Below are positions 17,460-41,142 of a DNA stretch of 64,000 nt, piece after piece. Each line of letters begins with the position of its first letter. Positions within the stretch are counted from its first letter, which is position 1. The notes under the pieces are model-generated. The model saw only the letters and a list, made by a program, of their open reading frames with translations. It was not told the origin of the DNA and ran no database searches. This DNA comes from Rhodanobacter sp. LX-99 (lineage in GTDB: Bacteria > Pseudomonadota > Gammaproteobacteria > Xanthomonadales > Rhodanobacteraceae), in the NCBI RefSeq assembly GCF_018599185.1, contig NZ_JAHFVL010000001.1, forward strand, positions 310,001-374,000. The letters are read 5' to 3'. Both the position numbers and the translations under genes were made by a program.

Positions 17460-17993
17460 TCAGTGCTCCCGGCGCTCGGCCGCCAGCACCGCCTGCAGCC
17501 CAGTCACTTGTGCACGGAGCTGGAGCTCGCGGGCGTCGGCGGCGTCACCGATTCGAACAATTCGGATCGCAGCTGCAACCCTATCGACAAGGGCTTGGGT
17601 GGCGGCTGCATCAGCGGCGCGGGAACGGGCGGTAGCGGCGGAGACTTGACCAGCACCGGGGCACATGCCGGCGTTGCGCAGCCGGAGAGAGCCGCCAGCA
17701 ACACCAGCAGCCACGGAATCAGCAACAGCGGGAGCTTTCGCATGGACGGCAGCCTCGTATTTCGCGCTCAGCGCGTTGAATTCGTCCCGCATCGCCGCGG
17801 ACGCAATGTCGTTCTGAGCCTGAGCTTTGGCGACGGCCTGCTGCTGAGCGACCTGTGACGCGTCCCACTTCGCCTGCACAGCGGTCTGGCCAGCCCGGTA
17901 GCGGGTGTGCCCGTAGTAGCTCACGCCGACCACCAGCAGCAGGATCACTGCGGCCAGTGCGATCAGCTTGGCTTCGATGCTGGCGAGCATCAC
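17460..17993 (-). CDS. Inner-membrane spanin (Rz-like)
   Basis: A 177-residue protein with an N-terminal signal-anchor (LIALAAVILLLVVGVSYYG, residues 9-27) and a long Ala/Gln-rich periplasmic coiled coil (GQTAVQAKWDASQVAQQQAV). It matches Rz-type i-spanins, which span the periplasm and fuse inner and outer membranes in the last step of lysis. A complete Rz1 lipoprotein gene lies inside it in another frame, which settles the assignment. The conserved motif LRLRNAGMCPGAG in the middle is shared with Rz proteins of other Xanthomonadales and Burkholderia prophages. Confidence 0.85.
   Translation of the reverse strand: MMLASIEAKLIALAAVILLLVVGVSYYGHTRYRAGQTAVQAKWDASQVAQQQAVAKAQAQNDIASAAMRDEFNALSAKYEAAVHAKAPAVADSVAAGVAGGSLRLRNAGMCPGAGQVSAATARSRAADAAATQALVDRVAAAIRIVRIGDAADARELQLRAQVTGLQAVLAAERREH
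17504..17743 (-). CDS. Outer-membrane spanin lipoprotein (Rz1-like), nested in Rz
   Basis: A 79-residue frame wholly contained in the Rz gene in a different reading frame on the same strand. It has a perfect lipoprotein signal: basic MRK, a Leu-rich core and the lipobox L-S-G-C with Cys22 as the lipidated residue. The mature part is proline-rich (SPPLPPVPAPLMQPPPKP), typical of Rz1. It should be anchored in the outer membrane and bind the end of Rz across the periplasm. The full nesting (not the partial overlap seen in some phages) is the lambda-type arrangement. Confidence 0.85.
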   Translation of the reverse strand: MRKLPLLLIPWLLVLLAALSGCATPACAPVLVKSPPLPPVPAPLMQPPPKPLSIGLQLRSELFESVTPPTPASSSSVHK

Positions 17994-18247
17994 GCATGCT
18001 CCGCGTTGTCGTCGTTTTCCGGCTCACGCAATGCAGGCTGGTCGATCACTCGCGCGACACCGGCCGCACCAGCACAGCCCAGATCAGTCAGCGCCAGTGC
18101 GCCCTTGATCCACTGCGGGATGGCCGGCAGCCAGTCCGGTGGCAGCAGCGCATAGGCGGCGATGATCGAGCTGAAGAACGCGGCGGCGATGATGAAGCGC
18201 ATCGACCACAGCCGGTGAGCCTTGCTCGCGTTCGGGATCAGCTTCAT
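17990..18247 (-). CDS. Holin-like membrane protein
   Basis: An 85-residue protein with two hydrophobic segments: about residues 17-36 (RFIIAAAFFSSIIAAYALLP) and about 47-66 (WIKGALALTDLGCAGAAGVA), and a charged C-terminus (REPENDDNAEH). It is in the lysis cassette between the endolysin and Rz, and its size and topology fit a class II holin that forms holes in the inner membrane to release the endolysin. It overlaps the start of Rz by a few bases. The neighbouring single-pass protein may modulate it. Confidence 0.75.
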   Translation of the reverse strand: MKLIPNASKAHRLWSMRFIIAAAFFSSIIAAYALLPPDWLPAIPQWIKGALALTDLGCAGAAGVARVIDQPALREPENDDNAEHA

Positions 18248-18248
18248 C

Positions 18249-18575
18249 TCAGCGCCTCGTCTGCTGCAGTTCGCGAATGTCGGAGGTGTTGCGCTCGATC
18301 TGCACCTTCGCCTCGGCCATGGCGCGGGTCAGGCCAGGCACGTCGGCAAGCTGCTGGCTCAGGGTCTGCAGCTGCGCATTGGTCACGGCTTGCTGCGTCA
18401 CGACGGTCTGCATCGTGTTGGCCTGGATTTCCAGGCGGTTGTCGAAGCTGTGGAACACGTAGCCCAGCAGGAACACCAGCAGCATCACGGACCCGGCGAT
18501 CACCCAGCGTTCCACTGGGCCGAGCTTGAACTGCATGTGGTCGCCATCGGCACGTGTGATTTCCATGGGCGTCAT
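18249..18575 (-). CDS. Membrane-anchored coiled-coil protein of the lysis cassette
   Basis: The ATG at 18575, overlapping the endolysin stop (ATGA), gives 108 residues. After about 20 polar residues comes one membrane helix (VERWVIAGSVMLLVFLLGYV) and then a heptad-rich region (FDNRLEIQANTMQTVVTQQA and VQIERNTSDIRELQQ). This looks like a bitopic protein with an outward coiled coil. It may be an accessory or antiholin; XhlA-like proteins have a similar make-up but the reverse order of helix and coil. Role inferred from position only. Confidence 0.6.
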   Translation of the reverse strand: MTPMEITRADGDHMQFKLGPVERWVIAGSVMLLVFLLGYVFHSFDNRLEIQANTMQTVVTQQAVTNAQLQTLSQQLADVPGLTRAMAEAKVQIERNTSDIRELQQTRR

Positions 18576-19048
18576 CCAGCCGCGTCCAGCGCCGCGGCAT
18601 AGTTCGCCGGCCACGCTTCAGGCCTCGGCTTTCCCGGGCGCCAGTTGCGCTGGTAGTACTTCCACGCGCCGTCCGCATCGCCCAGCTGCGGCAGCGGGTT
18701 CGCATCGGTCCACAGCAGCAGGCGGGCGAAGGCGCAGGCCAACTGGTCGTCGCTCAGGAATGCGGCGTAGACGTCGCTCTCGACCGGCGCCATGGCGCGC
18801 AGGCCGCAGAACGCGCGGGCGTAGGCCTTGCTCGCCGGGTGTGTCAGCACGCCACGAATGCCGCCGCCCTGCTCGAACTGCCAGTACGACCTGGCTGGGC
18901 CGCCGCTCTGCTGGCGCGTCAGGAACCCTGATTCCTGCAGCCCGATCGCCAGCATCTGCACGCGTGCCGGCTTGCCGTCGAACTTAGCGGGCAGCAGGTG
19001 CGACATCGTCAGCTCGACGATGCCGGCGCCCGTTTGAAGTGCGGTCAT
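18572..19048 (-). CDS. Probable endolysin (transglycosylase-like)
   Basis: The ATG at 19048, with AGGA upstream, gives 158 residues without a signal peptide. The segment VQMLAIGLQESGFLTRQQSG has the Glu-Ser pattern of soluble lytic transglycosylase-like enzymes, followed by GGPARSYWQFEQGGGIRGVL, a block I have seen in phage lysis proteins of Proteobacteria. It lies first in the lysis cassette, just downstream of the permuted tmRNA, and would leave the cell through the holin pore to cut peptidoglycan. The catalytic residue is inferred to be the Glu of LQES. Confidence 0.7.
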   Translation of the reverse strand: MTALQTGAGIVELTMSHLLPAKFDGKPARVQMLAIGLQESGFLTRQQSGGPARSYWQFEQGGGIRGVLTHPASKAYARAFCGLRAMAPVESDVYAAFLSDDQLACAFARLLLWTDANPLPQLGDADGAWKYYQRNWRPGKPRPEAWPANYAAALDAAG

Positions 19049-19130
19049 CGCGCGGATCCTGTGTGAATAAGTGGTCGCCGGAGAGTCCAGCGACCGAGGG
19101 CGTTCGGTGACGAAGTGCCCCAACTTCGGA

Positions 19131-19169
19131 TCAGGCGGCAATGGCCTGGTCGTACACGCTGTCATTGGC
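19131..19169 (-). other. tmRNA proteolysis tag reading frame
   Basis: Twelve codons, GCC to GCC, followed by TGA, encode ANDSVYDQAIAA. Bacterial tags typically begin A-N-D and end in a small hydrophobic A-A (ALAA or AIAA), which ClpXP recognises. The presumed resume codon is the GCC at 19169; an upstream in-frame GCA could be an alternative. Confidence 0.85.
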
Positions 19170-19254
19170 AGGTGTAGGTTTTGCGCCGATTACGTCGGTC
19201 GCCTTTCGTGCCGCGTCCCGTATCTCTACCGCCAGTCGAAACCAGGTCAGCCCC

Positions 19255-19316
19255 ATCAGATGGAACCTGAGACGTAGCCTCTTTCAGCTCGCGTTTCGGT
19301 TCTCTCAAGTCCCATC
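19255..19316 (-). other. tmRNA intervening segment with a 13-bp hairpin
   Basis: Between the acceptor CCA and the 5' G of the coding half, GATGGGACTTGAG pairs fully (two or three G-U pairs included) with CTCAGGTTCCATC. The helix stacks on the acceptor stem in the precursor and would be removed by RNase P and 3' nucleases to give two mature pieces. It is strong support for the permuted structure. Confidence 0.8.
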
Positions 19317-19493
19317 TGGTGGAGCTGGCGGGAATCGAACCCGCGTCCTAACGGCTTACATCAGGGCCGAATTACGGCCATTCGCAGTCGTGCCAACGAC
19401 GACAACGCTCTGCATTTGGATGCCGCAGCCCATCGCCGCCTTATGGCCTTTGTGGGCGTTGTCCCGGTGAAGCGATGCGGCAAGCTGAAACGC

Positions 19494-19518
19494 AAAAACC
19501 CCGCCGTTTCGGGCAGGG
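19494..19518 (-). terminator. Rho-independent terminator ahead of the tmRNA and lysis genes
   Basis: A CCCTGCC/GGCGGGG stem with a 6-nt loop followed by TTTTT on the minus strand. It lies about 40 nt downstream of the predicted start of the late promoter and upstream of the tmRNA, like lambda tR'. It would also end transcripts from the upstream gene. Confidence 0.8.
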
Positions 19519-19563
19519 TTTCGGGTAATGGTTCGGCGTTGGTGGCAACTTCGCCTGTAGCGA

Positions 19564-19592
19564 AATCTAGGCATTTACCCCCTTGACGTCAA
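19564..19592 (-). promoter_or_regulatory. Late promoter candidate (PR'-like)
   Basis: TTGACG at 19592-19587, a 17-nt spacer and TAGATT at 19569-19564 form a good sigma70 promoter on the minus strand, overlapping the 3' end of the upstream gene (stop at 19589). Its start would be near 19557, giving a short leader that ends at the terminator at 19494. Confidence 0.75.
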
Positions 19593-39591: not shown

Positions 39592-41142
39592 ATGCGAACC
39601 GCTGCATACGCCCGATACAGCTCCGACTCCCAGCGCGACGCCAGCCTGGACGACCAGCTGCGAAACTGCCGGCAGTACTGCGAGCGCCAGGGCTGGCCAG
39701 CGCCGACGGAATACACCGACGCCGCCACCAGTGGCGCACGGAACGACCGCGCCGGCTATCTGCGCCTGCTCACCGACGCGACACGCTATGACGTGATCCT
39801 GGTCGACGACCTGTCCCGCCTGAGCCGCGACAGCATCAACGTCGCGCAGGCGATCAAGCAGCTGAGCTTTCAAGGCGTGCGCCTGCTCGGCGTCAGCGAT
39901 GGCGTGGACACCAGCCGCAAGGGTCACAAGCTCGATGTAGGCCTGCGCGGGCTGATGTCGGAGCTTTACCTCACCGACCTCGCCGACAAGACACATCGCG
40001 GCCTCACCGGACGCGCTCTCGCGGGCGCCAGCGCGGGCGGCCTGCCCTACGGCTACCGCGTGACGGAGATCGGCCAGCGCGCCATCGACGAGAGCCAGGC
40101 GGTCATCGTGCGGCGGATCTTCGCCGAATACTTGGCCGGCAACAGCCCGCGCACCATCGCCGACGGCTTGAACCGCGACGGCATACCGCCGGCACGCGCG
40201 CGCACATGGGCGATGTCGGCCATCTACGGCGACGTGAAGCGCGGGATCGGCATCCTGGCCAACCCGATCTATGCGGGCCGACAGGTGTGGAACCGCAGCC
40301 AGTGGATCAAGCATCCGGACACCGGAAGGCGCGTGCGCAAGAACCGGCCGCCATCCGAATGGATCACCACGGAGCACCCGGAGCTGGCCATCATCACGCC
40401 GGCACTATGGCAAGCAGCGCAGGACCGCGTGAAACAGGCCCAGCCGCAACGCGCGGACGCCACCAAGGGCGCAGGCCCGGGCCGGCCGCCGCGACACCTG
40501 CTGAGCGGCATCCTGCGCTGTGGTCATTGCGGCGGCCCGATGGTGATCGTGGACCGCTACCGCTACGGCTGCAGCACGCACAAGGATCGCGGGCAAGCCG
40601 CCTGCCCATCCCGCGTCCGGGTGTCGCGCGCGATCGCCGAGACCGCTCTCCTGGCCGGCATTCGCGAAAGCCTGCTGAGCGAGGCGGCATTCCAGCGCTT
40701 CCAGCGTGGCGTCACCGCCGAACTGAAACGTGCCATGCCGGATCCGGAAGCAGCCCGCCGTCGAGTGGTCGACGCGGAGCGCGTACAAGGGAACATCCTC
40801 GCCGCCCTGCGCGCCGGCATCATCACTGCCAGCACGAAAGCTGAGCTGATCGAGGCGGAGCGTATGGTGGCGGCGGCACACGCGGAGCTGGCGGCTCTGC
40901 AGTCGTTTCAGCCATCGCAGATCCTGCCGAGGGCGCGTGAAGCATGGCGGGGGATGGTATCCAGGCTGGCCGACCACGCGAGGAACCTTCCCGAAGCACG
41001 CAACGCCTTGCGCGAGCTGCTGGGGGAAAGCGTGATGGTCAGAAACGAAAACGGCGAACTCTTCGCAGAGATCGCCGGTTCAGATTGTCAGCTAAAGCTG
41101 GTAGCGGGGGCAGGATTCGAACCTGCGACCTTCGGGTTATGA
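39592..41142 (+). CDS. Large serine recombinase (phage integrase)
   Basis: A 516-residue protein with an N-terminal resolvase domain: YARYSSDSQ with the nucleophile Ser10 (or Ser11), ASLDDQLRNCRQYCERQGWP, VILVDDLSRLSRDS. A recombinase domain follows (GLPYGYRVTE, RTIADGLNRDGIPPARARTW), then a zinc ribbon (ILRCGHCGGPMVIVDRYRYG, Cys...Cys) and a coiled-coil region near the C-terminus. The last residues (VAGAGFEPATFGL) are read from the antisense strand of the tRNA-fMet gene. It carries out site-specific insertion into that tRNA; excision would need a directionality factor not identified here. Confidence 0.9.
   Translation: MRTAAYARYSSDSQRDASLDDQLRNCRQYCERQGWPAPTEYTDAATSGARNDRAGYLRLLTDATRYDVILVDDLSRLSRDSINVAQAIKQLSFQGVRLLGVSDGVDTSRKGHKLDVGLRGLMSELYLTDLADKTHRGLTGRALAGASAGGLPYGYRVTEIGQRAIDESQAVIVRRIFAEYLAGNSPRTIADGLNRDGIPPARARTWAMSAIYGDVKRGIGILANPIYAGRQVWNRSQWIKHPDTGRRVRKNRPPSEWITTEHPELAIITPALWQAAQDRVKQAQPQRADATKGAGPGRPPRHLLSGILRCGHCGGPMVIVDRYRYGCSTHKDRGQAACPSRVRVSRAIAETALLAGIRESLLSEAAFQRFQRGVTAELKRAMPDPEAARRRVVDAERVQGNILAALRAGIITASTKAELIEAERMVAAAHAELAALQSFQPSQILPRAREAWRGMVSRLADHARNLPEARNALRELLGESVMVRNENGELFAEIAGSDCQLKLVAGAGFEPATFGL
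41099..41142. other. Right attachment site region (attR), integrase 3' end inside tRNA-fMet
   Basis: The tRNA 3' half (acceptor strand, T arm, variable region and anticodon stem side) and the last 13 or so codons of the integrase share these bases on opposite strands. The crossover must lie in this stretch or close to it. The exact core cannot be set without the left end of the prophage. Confidence 0.7.

Follow-up and report, generated by a model that had tools for sequence, protein, structure and literature searches.

A circularly permuted tmRNA gene in a probable prophage of Rhodanobacter sp. LX-99, with relatives in otherwise unrelated phages

Within the 64,000-nucleotide stretch of Rhodanobacter sp. 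LX-99 DNA that we analysed (the window), ARAGORN and two Rfam models locate a circularly permuted tmRNA gene on the minus strand, at approximately 19419-19072. It is a complete gene within a probable prophage, with phage genes on both flanks. Sequence comparison makes it probable that the gene works, as a circularly permuted (two-piece) tmRNA that a temperate phage carries as an accessory. Two-piece tmRNAs of phages are already known, and the gene of the window has relatives in a number of phages of related bacteria that are not otherwise related to one another.

Architecture of the permuted gene

The original prediction had proposed a permuted tmRNA at this place, with a tmRNA search as its check; ARAGORN, RF04321 and RF01850 were all positive. 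ARAGORN called a permuted tmRNA at 19409-19040. The permuted tmRNA model RF04321 scored 134.1 bits (cut-off 47 bits; E 4.3e-26; model positions 1-213 of 213) and the betaproteobacterial model RF01850 scored 106.4 bits (cut-off 84 bits; E 2.2e-31; 1-331 of 331), both matches running end to end and exceeding the curated cut-offs. The parts of the gene are as follows.

19317-19419, minus strand: acceptor half, with the T arm and an encoded CCA (19319-19317); its 5' end is not fixed (19409 by ARAGORN, 19419 by RF01850)
19255-19316, minus strand: intervening sequence of 62 nt, expected to be removed in processing
19072-19254, minus strand: coding half, with its 3' end as predicted by the RF01850 match
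19131-19169, minus strand: tag reading frame ANDSVYDQAIAA with a UGA stop, by alignment with the models and relatives
19098-19128, minus strand: predicted H-type pseudoknot 3' of the tag, with loop UCACCGAA and arms picked by eye

The acceptor half lies ahead of the coding half on the same strand. It terminates in CAGCTCCACCA exactly at 19317, and the coding half starts with GGGGCTGACCTGGTTTCGAC exactly at 19254, both on the minus strand and both where the original prediction had put them. The split acceptor stem (GGGGCTG with CAGCTCC) is paired at 7 of 7 positions with G.U at pair 3, in agreement with the predicted 7-bp helix and its G-U identity pair. The tag frame expected to follow is indeed open, with an alanine resume codon and a stop, and reads ANDSVYDQAIAA. 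Alignment with the models and relatives sets the resume codon at GCC, position 19169; the tag given by ARAGORN, GAKPTPANDSVYDQAIAA, begins six codons too early compared with this alignment-based reading. The base five before the resume codon is C in the window and in phage QDWS359 and T in most rows, and the long helix holds non-standard pairs in the RF04321 alignment; both points speak against a working gene. ARAGORN also calls a tRNA-Arg(ccg) at 19317-19409, covering the same acceptor half, which is most likely a misreading of that half. Both halves, the CCA, the tag, the stop and the pseudoknot are all intact.

Setting within the prophage

The surroundings of the gene contain these features.

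41098-41114, no strand: 17-bp repeat at the 3' end of a tRNA-Met gene, with an exact second copy at C1:304040-304056
39592-41142, plus strand: serine integrase of the prophage
19564-19592, minus strand: sigma-70-like promoter match TTGACG-17-TAGATT upstream of the tmRNA, a match to the consensus only (1 found, 0.2 expected)
19494-19521, minus strand: hairpin running into TTTTT between the promoter match and the tmRNA (-20.9 kcal/mol, z -2.66)
18572-19048, minus strand: gene of PHROG 3108 (function unknown), next downstream of the tmRNA
17990-18247, minus strand: holin-family gene, by match to PHROG 1356
17460-17993, minus strand: Rz-like spanin, by family match

The recurrence of the 17-bp repeat has an E value of 0.003 in a 40-kb search. 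Because the repeat lies in tRNA-Met and recurs at C1:304040-304056, a prophage of approximately 47.1 kb is probable; it would be inserted in the tRNA-Met gene, with its right end probably at 41098-41114, the serine integrase at one end and the tmRNA near the middle. The mid-prophage position of the original prediction thus holds, both by the phage genes on the flanks and by the bounds that the repeat sets. The reading frame of the integrase itself extends across this probable attachment repeat and into tRNA-Met, which lies on the opposite strand.

Immediate neighbours of the tmRNA are a 175-residue reading frame without family matches on one side and the PHROG 3108 gene on the other, the start of the latter being set at the ATG at 19048 because the longer reading frame overlaps the tmRNA. 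This next gene had been taken for the endolysin, which is not confirmed: it matches PHROG 3108 and returned zero family matches in a Pfam search, though the holin and Rz-like spanin matches lie after it, followed by terminase, portal and head families. The hairpin at 19494-19521 was equalled by 2 of 200 shuffled sequences and is possibly a terminator; a terminator pattern scan upstream of the tmRNA listed none, this hairpin included, and we regard both the promoter and the terminator readings as weak. The order of promoter, hairpin, tmRNA and lysis genes is reminiscent of the late start of lambda at pR'-tR'. In its head genes the prophage resembles Burkholderia phage Magia (an 8-kb query aligns over 60% of its length, at 70.3% identity). 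Magia is close in these genes but has no tmRNA by ARAGORN, and the tmRNA therefore looks like an accessory gene of the prophage.

Relatives, selection and origin

The gene of the window matches 25 of 50,697 phage records. Four of them, two of QDWS359 and one each of Rb1 and XacN1, gave permuted calls; the other 21 are from Mycobacterium phages and match over only 31-36 bases. Queries with kin of the gene reach DLP6 and the Moby group. When genome contigs were scanned for the tag pattern AND..Y.QA.AA, five stretches came up. Two are one-piece ssrA genes, of Dyella sp. OK004 and D. acidisoli. Two are permuted genes with a spacer of 5 nt, one in a prophage of Dyella sp. AtDHG13 and one in a Nevskia MAG (tag ANDSVYDQALAA, integrase nearby). 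The fifth, from a Flavobacteriales MAG, holds a one-piece gene next to 21 tRNA calls; that contig (L064, 4061-7952, tag ANDAIYDQAVAA) has the look of phage DNA that was assigned to a bacterial bin. Some side observations concern these loci. The halves are only 4-5 nt apart in L015, L016, L017, L065, L080 and L086. The QDWS359 record annotates a hypothetical protein (L012, 9966-10544) on the strand opposite the permuted tmRNA and leaves the tmRNA unlisted. An element, GACAGCCGGGAAAGACCGGCACC, with a short hairpin lies 3' of the tmRNA in L015 and L016; Pseudomonas phage Medea1 has it too, in non-coding DNA (L115, 3001-3032). Medea1 was rejected as a carrier, as it holds only this 32-base element from after the Dyella gene and gave no tmRNA call in a 6-kb stretch.

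In the stretches compared, the carriers share almost no genes with the prophage of the window. Comparison of the 61 reading frames of the window with 55 loci gave two single matches (L039 and L052), and with 13 carrier loci again two (L052 and L016, the latter 43% over 65 residues and perhaps arising from overlap of that reading frame with the tmRNA); these comparisons covered retrieved stretches rather than whole phages and, of the prophage, the part inside the window (all but its leftmost 6 kb). Neighbours also vary: integrase, Erf and a RecE-like protein in L051; Sak4, SSB and a helicase in L016; ribonucleotide reductase in QDWS359 and L019. Both observations suggest that the tmRNA travels independently of the genes around it.

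Permuted genes of this type are abundant in viral contigs. IMG/VR was scanned four times for beta-type permuted genes with spacers of 2-125 nt, which gave at least 460 further loci, 445 of which pair fully across the split stem, a count partly built in, as the search pattern forces pairs 1-3 and part of pairs 4-7. At least 411 combine a full stem with a permuted call by ARAGORN, in a database that may contain stretches of bacterial DNA; their spacers are 3-125 nt, with 6 nt or less in 15 loci. That all 411 of these loci have G.U at pair 3 was set aside as evidence, since the search pattern imposes it. When 20 proteins from nine of the IMG/VR carrier contigs and the Nevskia stretch were compared with PHROG families, 11 matched. 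ARAGORN gives at least 215 distinct tags, some of them doubtful, of which 138 end in LAA, 23 in MAA and 11 in IAA; in some of the viral permuted genes the tag called by ARAGORN is as long as 25-31 residues, for example ANADTFDFSAMSFTGNTVSGKSKVALAA (6 loci). The pattern ANDxVYxQA(I/L)AA is carried by 5 of the 6 other phage-type members of the clade that the gene of the window joins in a 94-row tree (below). Y.QA(I/L/V)AA occurs in 0 of the 215 viral tags, a set that excludes the loci found earlier by tag scans, and two one-piece host tags of Dyella end in QALAA; the tag pattern is thus weakened as a phage signature.

Several comparisons among relatives bear on selection. The tags are ANDSVYDQAIAA in the window, ANDNVYDQAIAA in L015, ANDSVYAQAIAA in L012 (QDWS359), ANDDVYAQAIAA in L016 and ANDSVYDQALAA in L065 (the Nevskia MAG); that of L019 is identical to that of QDWS359. 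Across the tag codons of these five kin, which were picked for sharing the tag and leave out Rb1 (ANDDNFRPALRLAA) and chromosomal copies (such as ANADYYDQNEQKELLAA), the variable columns number 2, 2 and 7 by codon position (P 0.016 for random placement), with 42 synonymous and 17 non-synonymous changes in pairwise comparison. The pseudoknot loop is kept while its arms co-vary, with 54 of 54 pairs formed in six rows; arms swapped between rows gave a mean of 41.2 pairs, and 0 of 5000 swaps did as well as 54, although the arms were chosen by eye as pairing and the test was not blind. The 47 permuted rows compared have ten different acceptor stems, each fully paired, many redundant or ill-delimited rows having been dropped beforehand. 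A wider check found fewer than 7 pairs, as delimited by the script, in 10 of 78 rows (L020, L031, L032, L064, L073, L074, L076, L078, L080 and L084); L020 and L080 nevertheless show a full stem or a match by other analyses. The codon-wise conservation of the tag and the paired changes of the pseudoknot suggest a working gene.

Among bacterial genomes the gene is sporadic. RF04321 was found in 2 genomes out of 233 in the family, in 7 of a sample of 398 from the order and in 2 of a sample of 369 from the class; one of these last two is G529, which groups with alpha genes in a 77-row tree. One genome of the host's own family, G050, holds a kin permuted gene with the tag seen in Dyella sp. AtDHG13. 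Six of the seven carriers in the sample from the order also possess a one-piece tmRNA, and four of those belong to one genus of a sister family within Xanthomonadales (g38). This genus has a permuted tmRNA in 8 of 91 genomes (loci L047-L050, L054-L057 and L120-L123), together with a one-piece tmRNA in 4 of 4 genomes checked. Its permuted gene looks chromosomal, since L054, L055 and L057 share ordinary neighbours at 79-99% identity (a TonB receptor, a histidine kinase and a metallo-beta-lactamase fold); these are absent around L056. The tags of this genus are odd (ANADYYDQNEQDTLLAA, ANHDDYRQVLKAA and ANQVDYHQARIAA). One of the seven carriers in the sample from the order, G250, was rejected as a member of Xanthomonadales with a permuted tmRNA only: it scores 296.6 bits with alpha_tmRNA, has a Rhizobiales sRNA match nearby and is probably alphaproteobacterial.

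A 94-row tree of 206 columns, for which 45 of 120 viral representatives were drawn at random, places the gene of the window in an 11-row clade with support of 100/99, together with the Dyella prophage, the Nevskia MAG, the Stenotrophomonas and Xanthomonas phages QDWS359 and Rb1, two IMG/VR loci (L016 and L019) and four chromosomal genes, which are second copies in one related genus. A similar set of 15 rows has an SH-aLRT of 94 in a 226-row tree that was poorly searched. The gene is basal to all non-alpha rows in a 44-row tree, from which the 11-row clade is absent, and its position is not resolved in the 77-row tree. Monophyly of six rows of the conserved clade was neither demonstrated nor rejected (p 0.129, and 0.206 with the chromosomal copies). 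The original prediction had assigned the gene to a foreign lineage. This stands in so far as the gene is not of the one-piece type of its host and scores with the betaproteobacterial model; it fails in so far as the nearest rows are phages and prophages of Xanthomonadales. For the latter reason a betaproteobacterial host as direct donor is not supported.

Tentatively, the beta-type permuted tmRNA may be a virus gene family that is widespread in phages and passed between unrelated ones, with the rare bacterial copies (the two-piece ssrA of a few betaproteobacteria and the second tmRNA of g38) captured from it; we consider this possible but rather doubtful. With an alphaproteobacterial outgroup, rooting on the branch of the betaproteobacterial hosts was rejected (AU p 0.016 and 0.011). 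The 94-row tree rejected neither a shared origin with the one-piece beta genes (p 0.124) nor a grouping of the window gene with host one-piece genes (AU p 0.216). One constrained tree came out 9 units above the free tree there, and three constrained trees came out 79-144 log units above it in the quick 226-row tree. If the proposal is true, bacteria owe a ribosome-rescue RNA to phages. The number of permuted genes in viral contigs makes the origin of the bacterial two-piece ssrA testable.

Proposed role and comparison with known systems

The host was correctly placed among the gammaproteobacteria; kinship to Dyella sp. AtDHG13, which is of another genus, assigns it to Rhodanobacteraceae. A search of its genome (3.83 Mb, 6 contigs) confirmed that its normal tmRNA is one-piece: an intact ssrA lies at C1:34353-34707 (200.9 bits, tag ANDDNYALAA), about 295 kb from the phage tmRNA, and the sole SmpB match in the genome adjoins it. 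That the host already has a complete trans-translation system speaks against the reading of a working phage gene. Host SmpB would be available to the phage tmRNA, if binding is assumed, and the likely role of the latter is extra trans-translation with host SmpB during infection. The tmRNA would be transcribed together with the lysis and late genes, and host RNases would cut out the spacer. The two pieces would remain paired and be alanylated by the host enzyme; with host SmpB they would then free ribosomes that have stalled on broken mRNA while the phage grows. Stalled proteins would receive (A)ANDSVYDQAIAA, the expected tag on a non-stop product being AANDSVYDQAIAA.

The phage tag ends in QAIAA and the host tag in YALAA. 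Given IAA in one and LAA in the other, host proteases may handle phage-tagged products differently, and this difference is also what speaks for the leading alternative, namely that the main role is to compete with the host tmRNA by taking SmpB and retagging proteins, with host proteolysis blunted or redirected. A tmRNA of mycobacteriophage DS6A that consists of the tRNA-like domain only, or a similar molecule, is reported to inhibit host tmRNA, perhaps by titration of SmpB (PMC4131195, PMC11915505). Yet the tag and coding half are kept here and conserved codon by codon, and pure titration needs neither. Endings in IAA are moreover a minority but not rare (11 of at least 215 viral tags, against 138 for LAA), and one betaproteobacterial host tag also ends in IAA (ANDEHFAIAA). 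We consider competition as the main role unlikely. Slightly less likely still is that the gene is a passenger or is decaying, its sequence still whole but of no use to the phage. Its scattered occurrence, in 2 of the 233 family genomes, would fit, and decay does occur in the group, as the g38 copy L123 has lost the encoded CCA and the tag stop; the intact halves, CCA, tag, stop and pseudoknot here, and the signs of selection among relatives, argue against it. That the gene is an att duplication or fragment of host ssrA, as might be thought since tmRNA genes are frequent integration sites (PMC4383910, PMC11915505), is very improbable and was rejected, because the host gene is one-piece, intact, distant and differently tagged, the probable attachment repeat lies in tRNA-Met, and the phage gene is complete, permuted and internal, an arrangement that alone excludes a duplicate despite the AU p of 0.216. 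Of the three refuting outcomes named by the original prediction, two are thereby contradicted: a covariance-model hit exists, and the sequence is not a duplicated att copy of host ssrA.

For the preferred reading, that of a working accessory gene, two consequences are of note. A prophage that holds a complete two-piece tmRNA despite the normal one of its host makes the value of the gene to the phage testable by gene removal. Further, phages of related hosts that are otherwise unrelated share a tag that is nearly constant and differs from that of the host, which suggests that the fate of the tagged proteins is under selection.

The original prediction was unaware of any description of such a gene. 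As a kind it has been described: two-piece phage tmRNAs are published (PMC9004378) and tmRNAs of Stenotrophomonas phages are annotated. The literature searched contained the phage two-piece tmRNAs and the Marzo tmRNA, and we did not recognise the clade or tag of the window in it. According to PMC9004378, 402 of 18,146 phage genomes have tmRNA genes, of which 53 were called two-piece, 50 of these marine or aquatic; the 2025 tmRNA database counts 79 bacteriophage sequences among 97,179 (PMC11915505). The tmRNAs of mycobacteriophages and of Bacillus phage G are phage-borne like that of the window, but one-piece (PMC4131195). The betaproteobacterial two-piece ssrA (RF01850) shares the gene form and covariance model with the window gene but is a resident host gene (4 of 120 genomes of one order), is distant in the trees and lacks an encoded CCA in 3 of 4 cases. 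The tmRNA of Melnitz, a phage of OM43, and the surveyed two-piece tmRNAs are, like the gene of the window, phage-borne, permuted and unlike the host lineage. By its description, Melnitz differs in its alphaproteobacterial type, its glutamine riboswitch, its marine setting and the absence of a found integrase; its authors proposed upkeep of translation and selective tagging of host proteins (PMC9004378).

Closer in host are the Moby, Marzo and Yut2 phages (Menderavirus, Stenotrophomonas), which also carry tmRNAs and whose hosts belong to the same bacterial order. ARAGORN calls the tmRNAs of Moby and Yut2 permuted, and that of Moby exceeds the RF01850 cut-off; the Marzo tmRNA is in print, in text that makes no mention of permutation (PMC8928761). 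These phages differ in being large and T4-like with tRNA clusters, in their tag ANDDSYTVRIAA and in falling outside the 11-row clade of the 94-row tree. Stenotrophomonas phage vB_Sm_QDWS359 (ON331942) resembles the window in sequence (77.6% identity over 56% of the query), in its tag ANDSVYAQAIAA and in falling into the same clade of the 94-row tree; it differs in its spacer of 110 nt, its placement in Bradleyvirinae, the ribonucleotide reductase next door and a tmRNA left unannotated.
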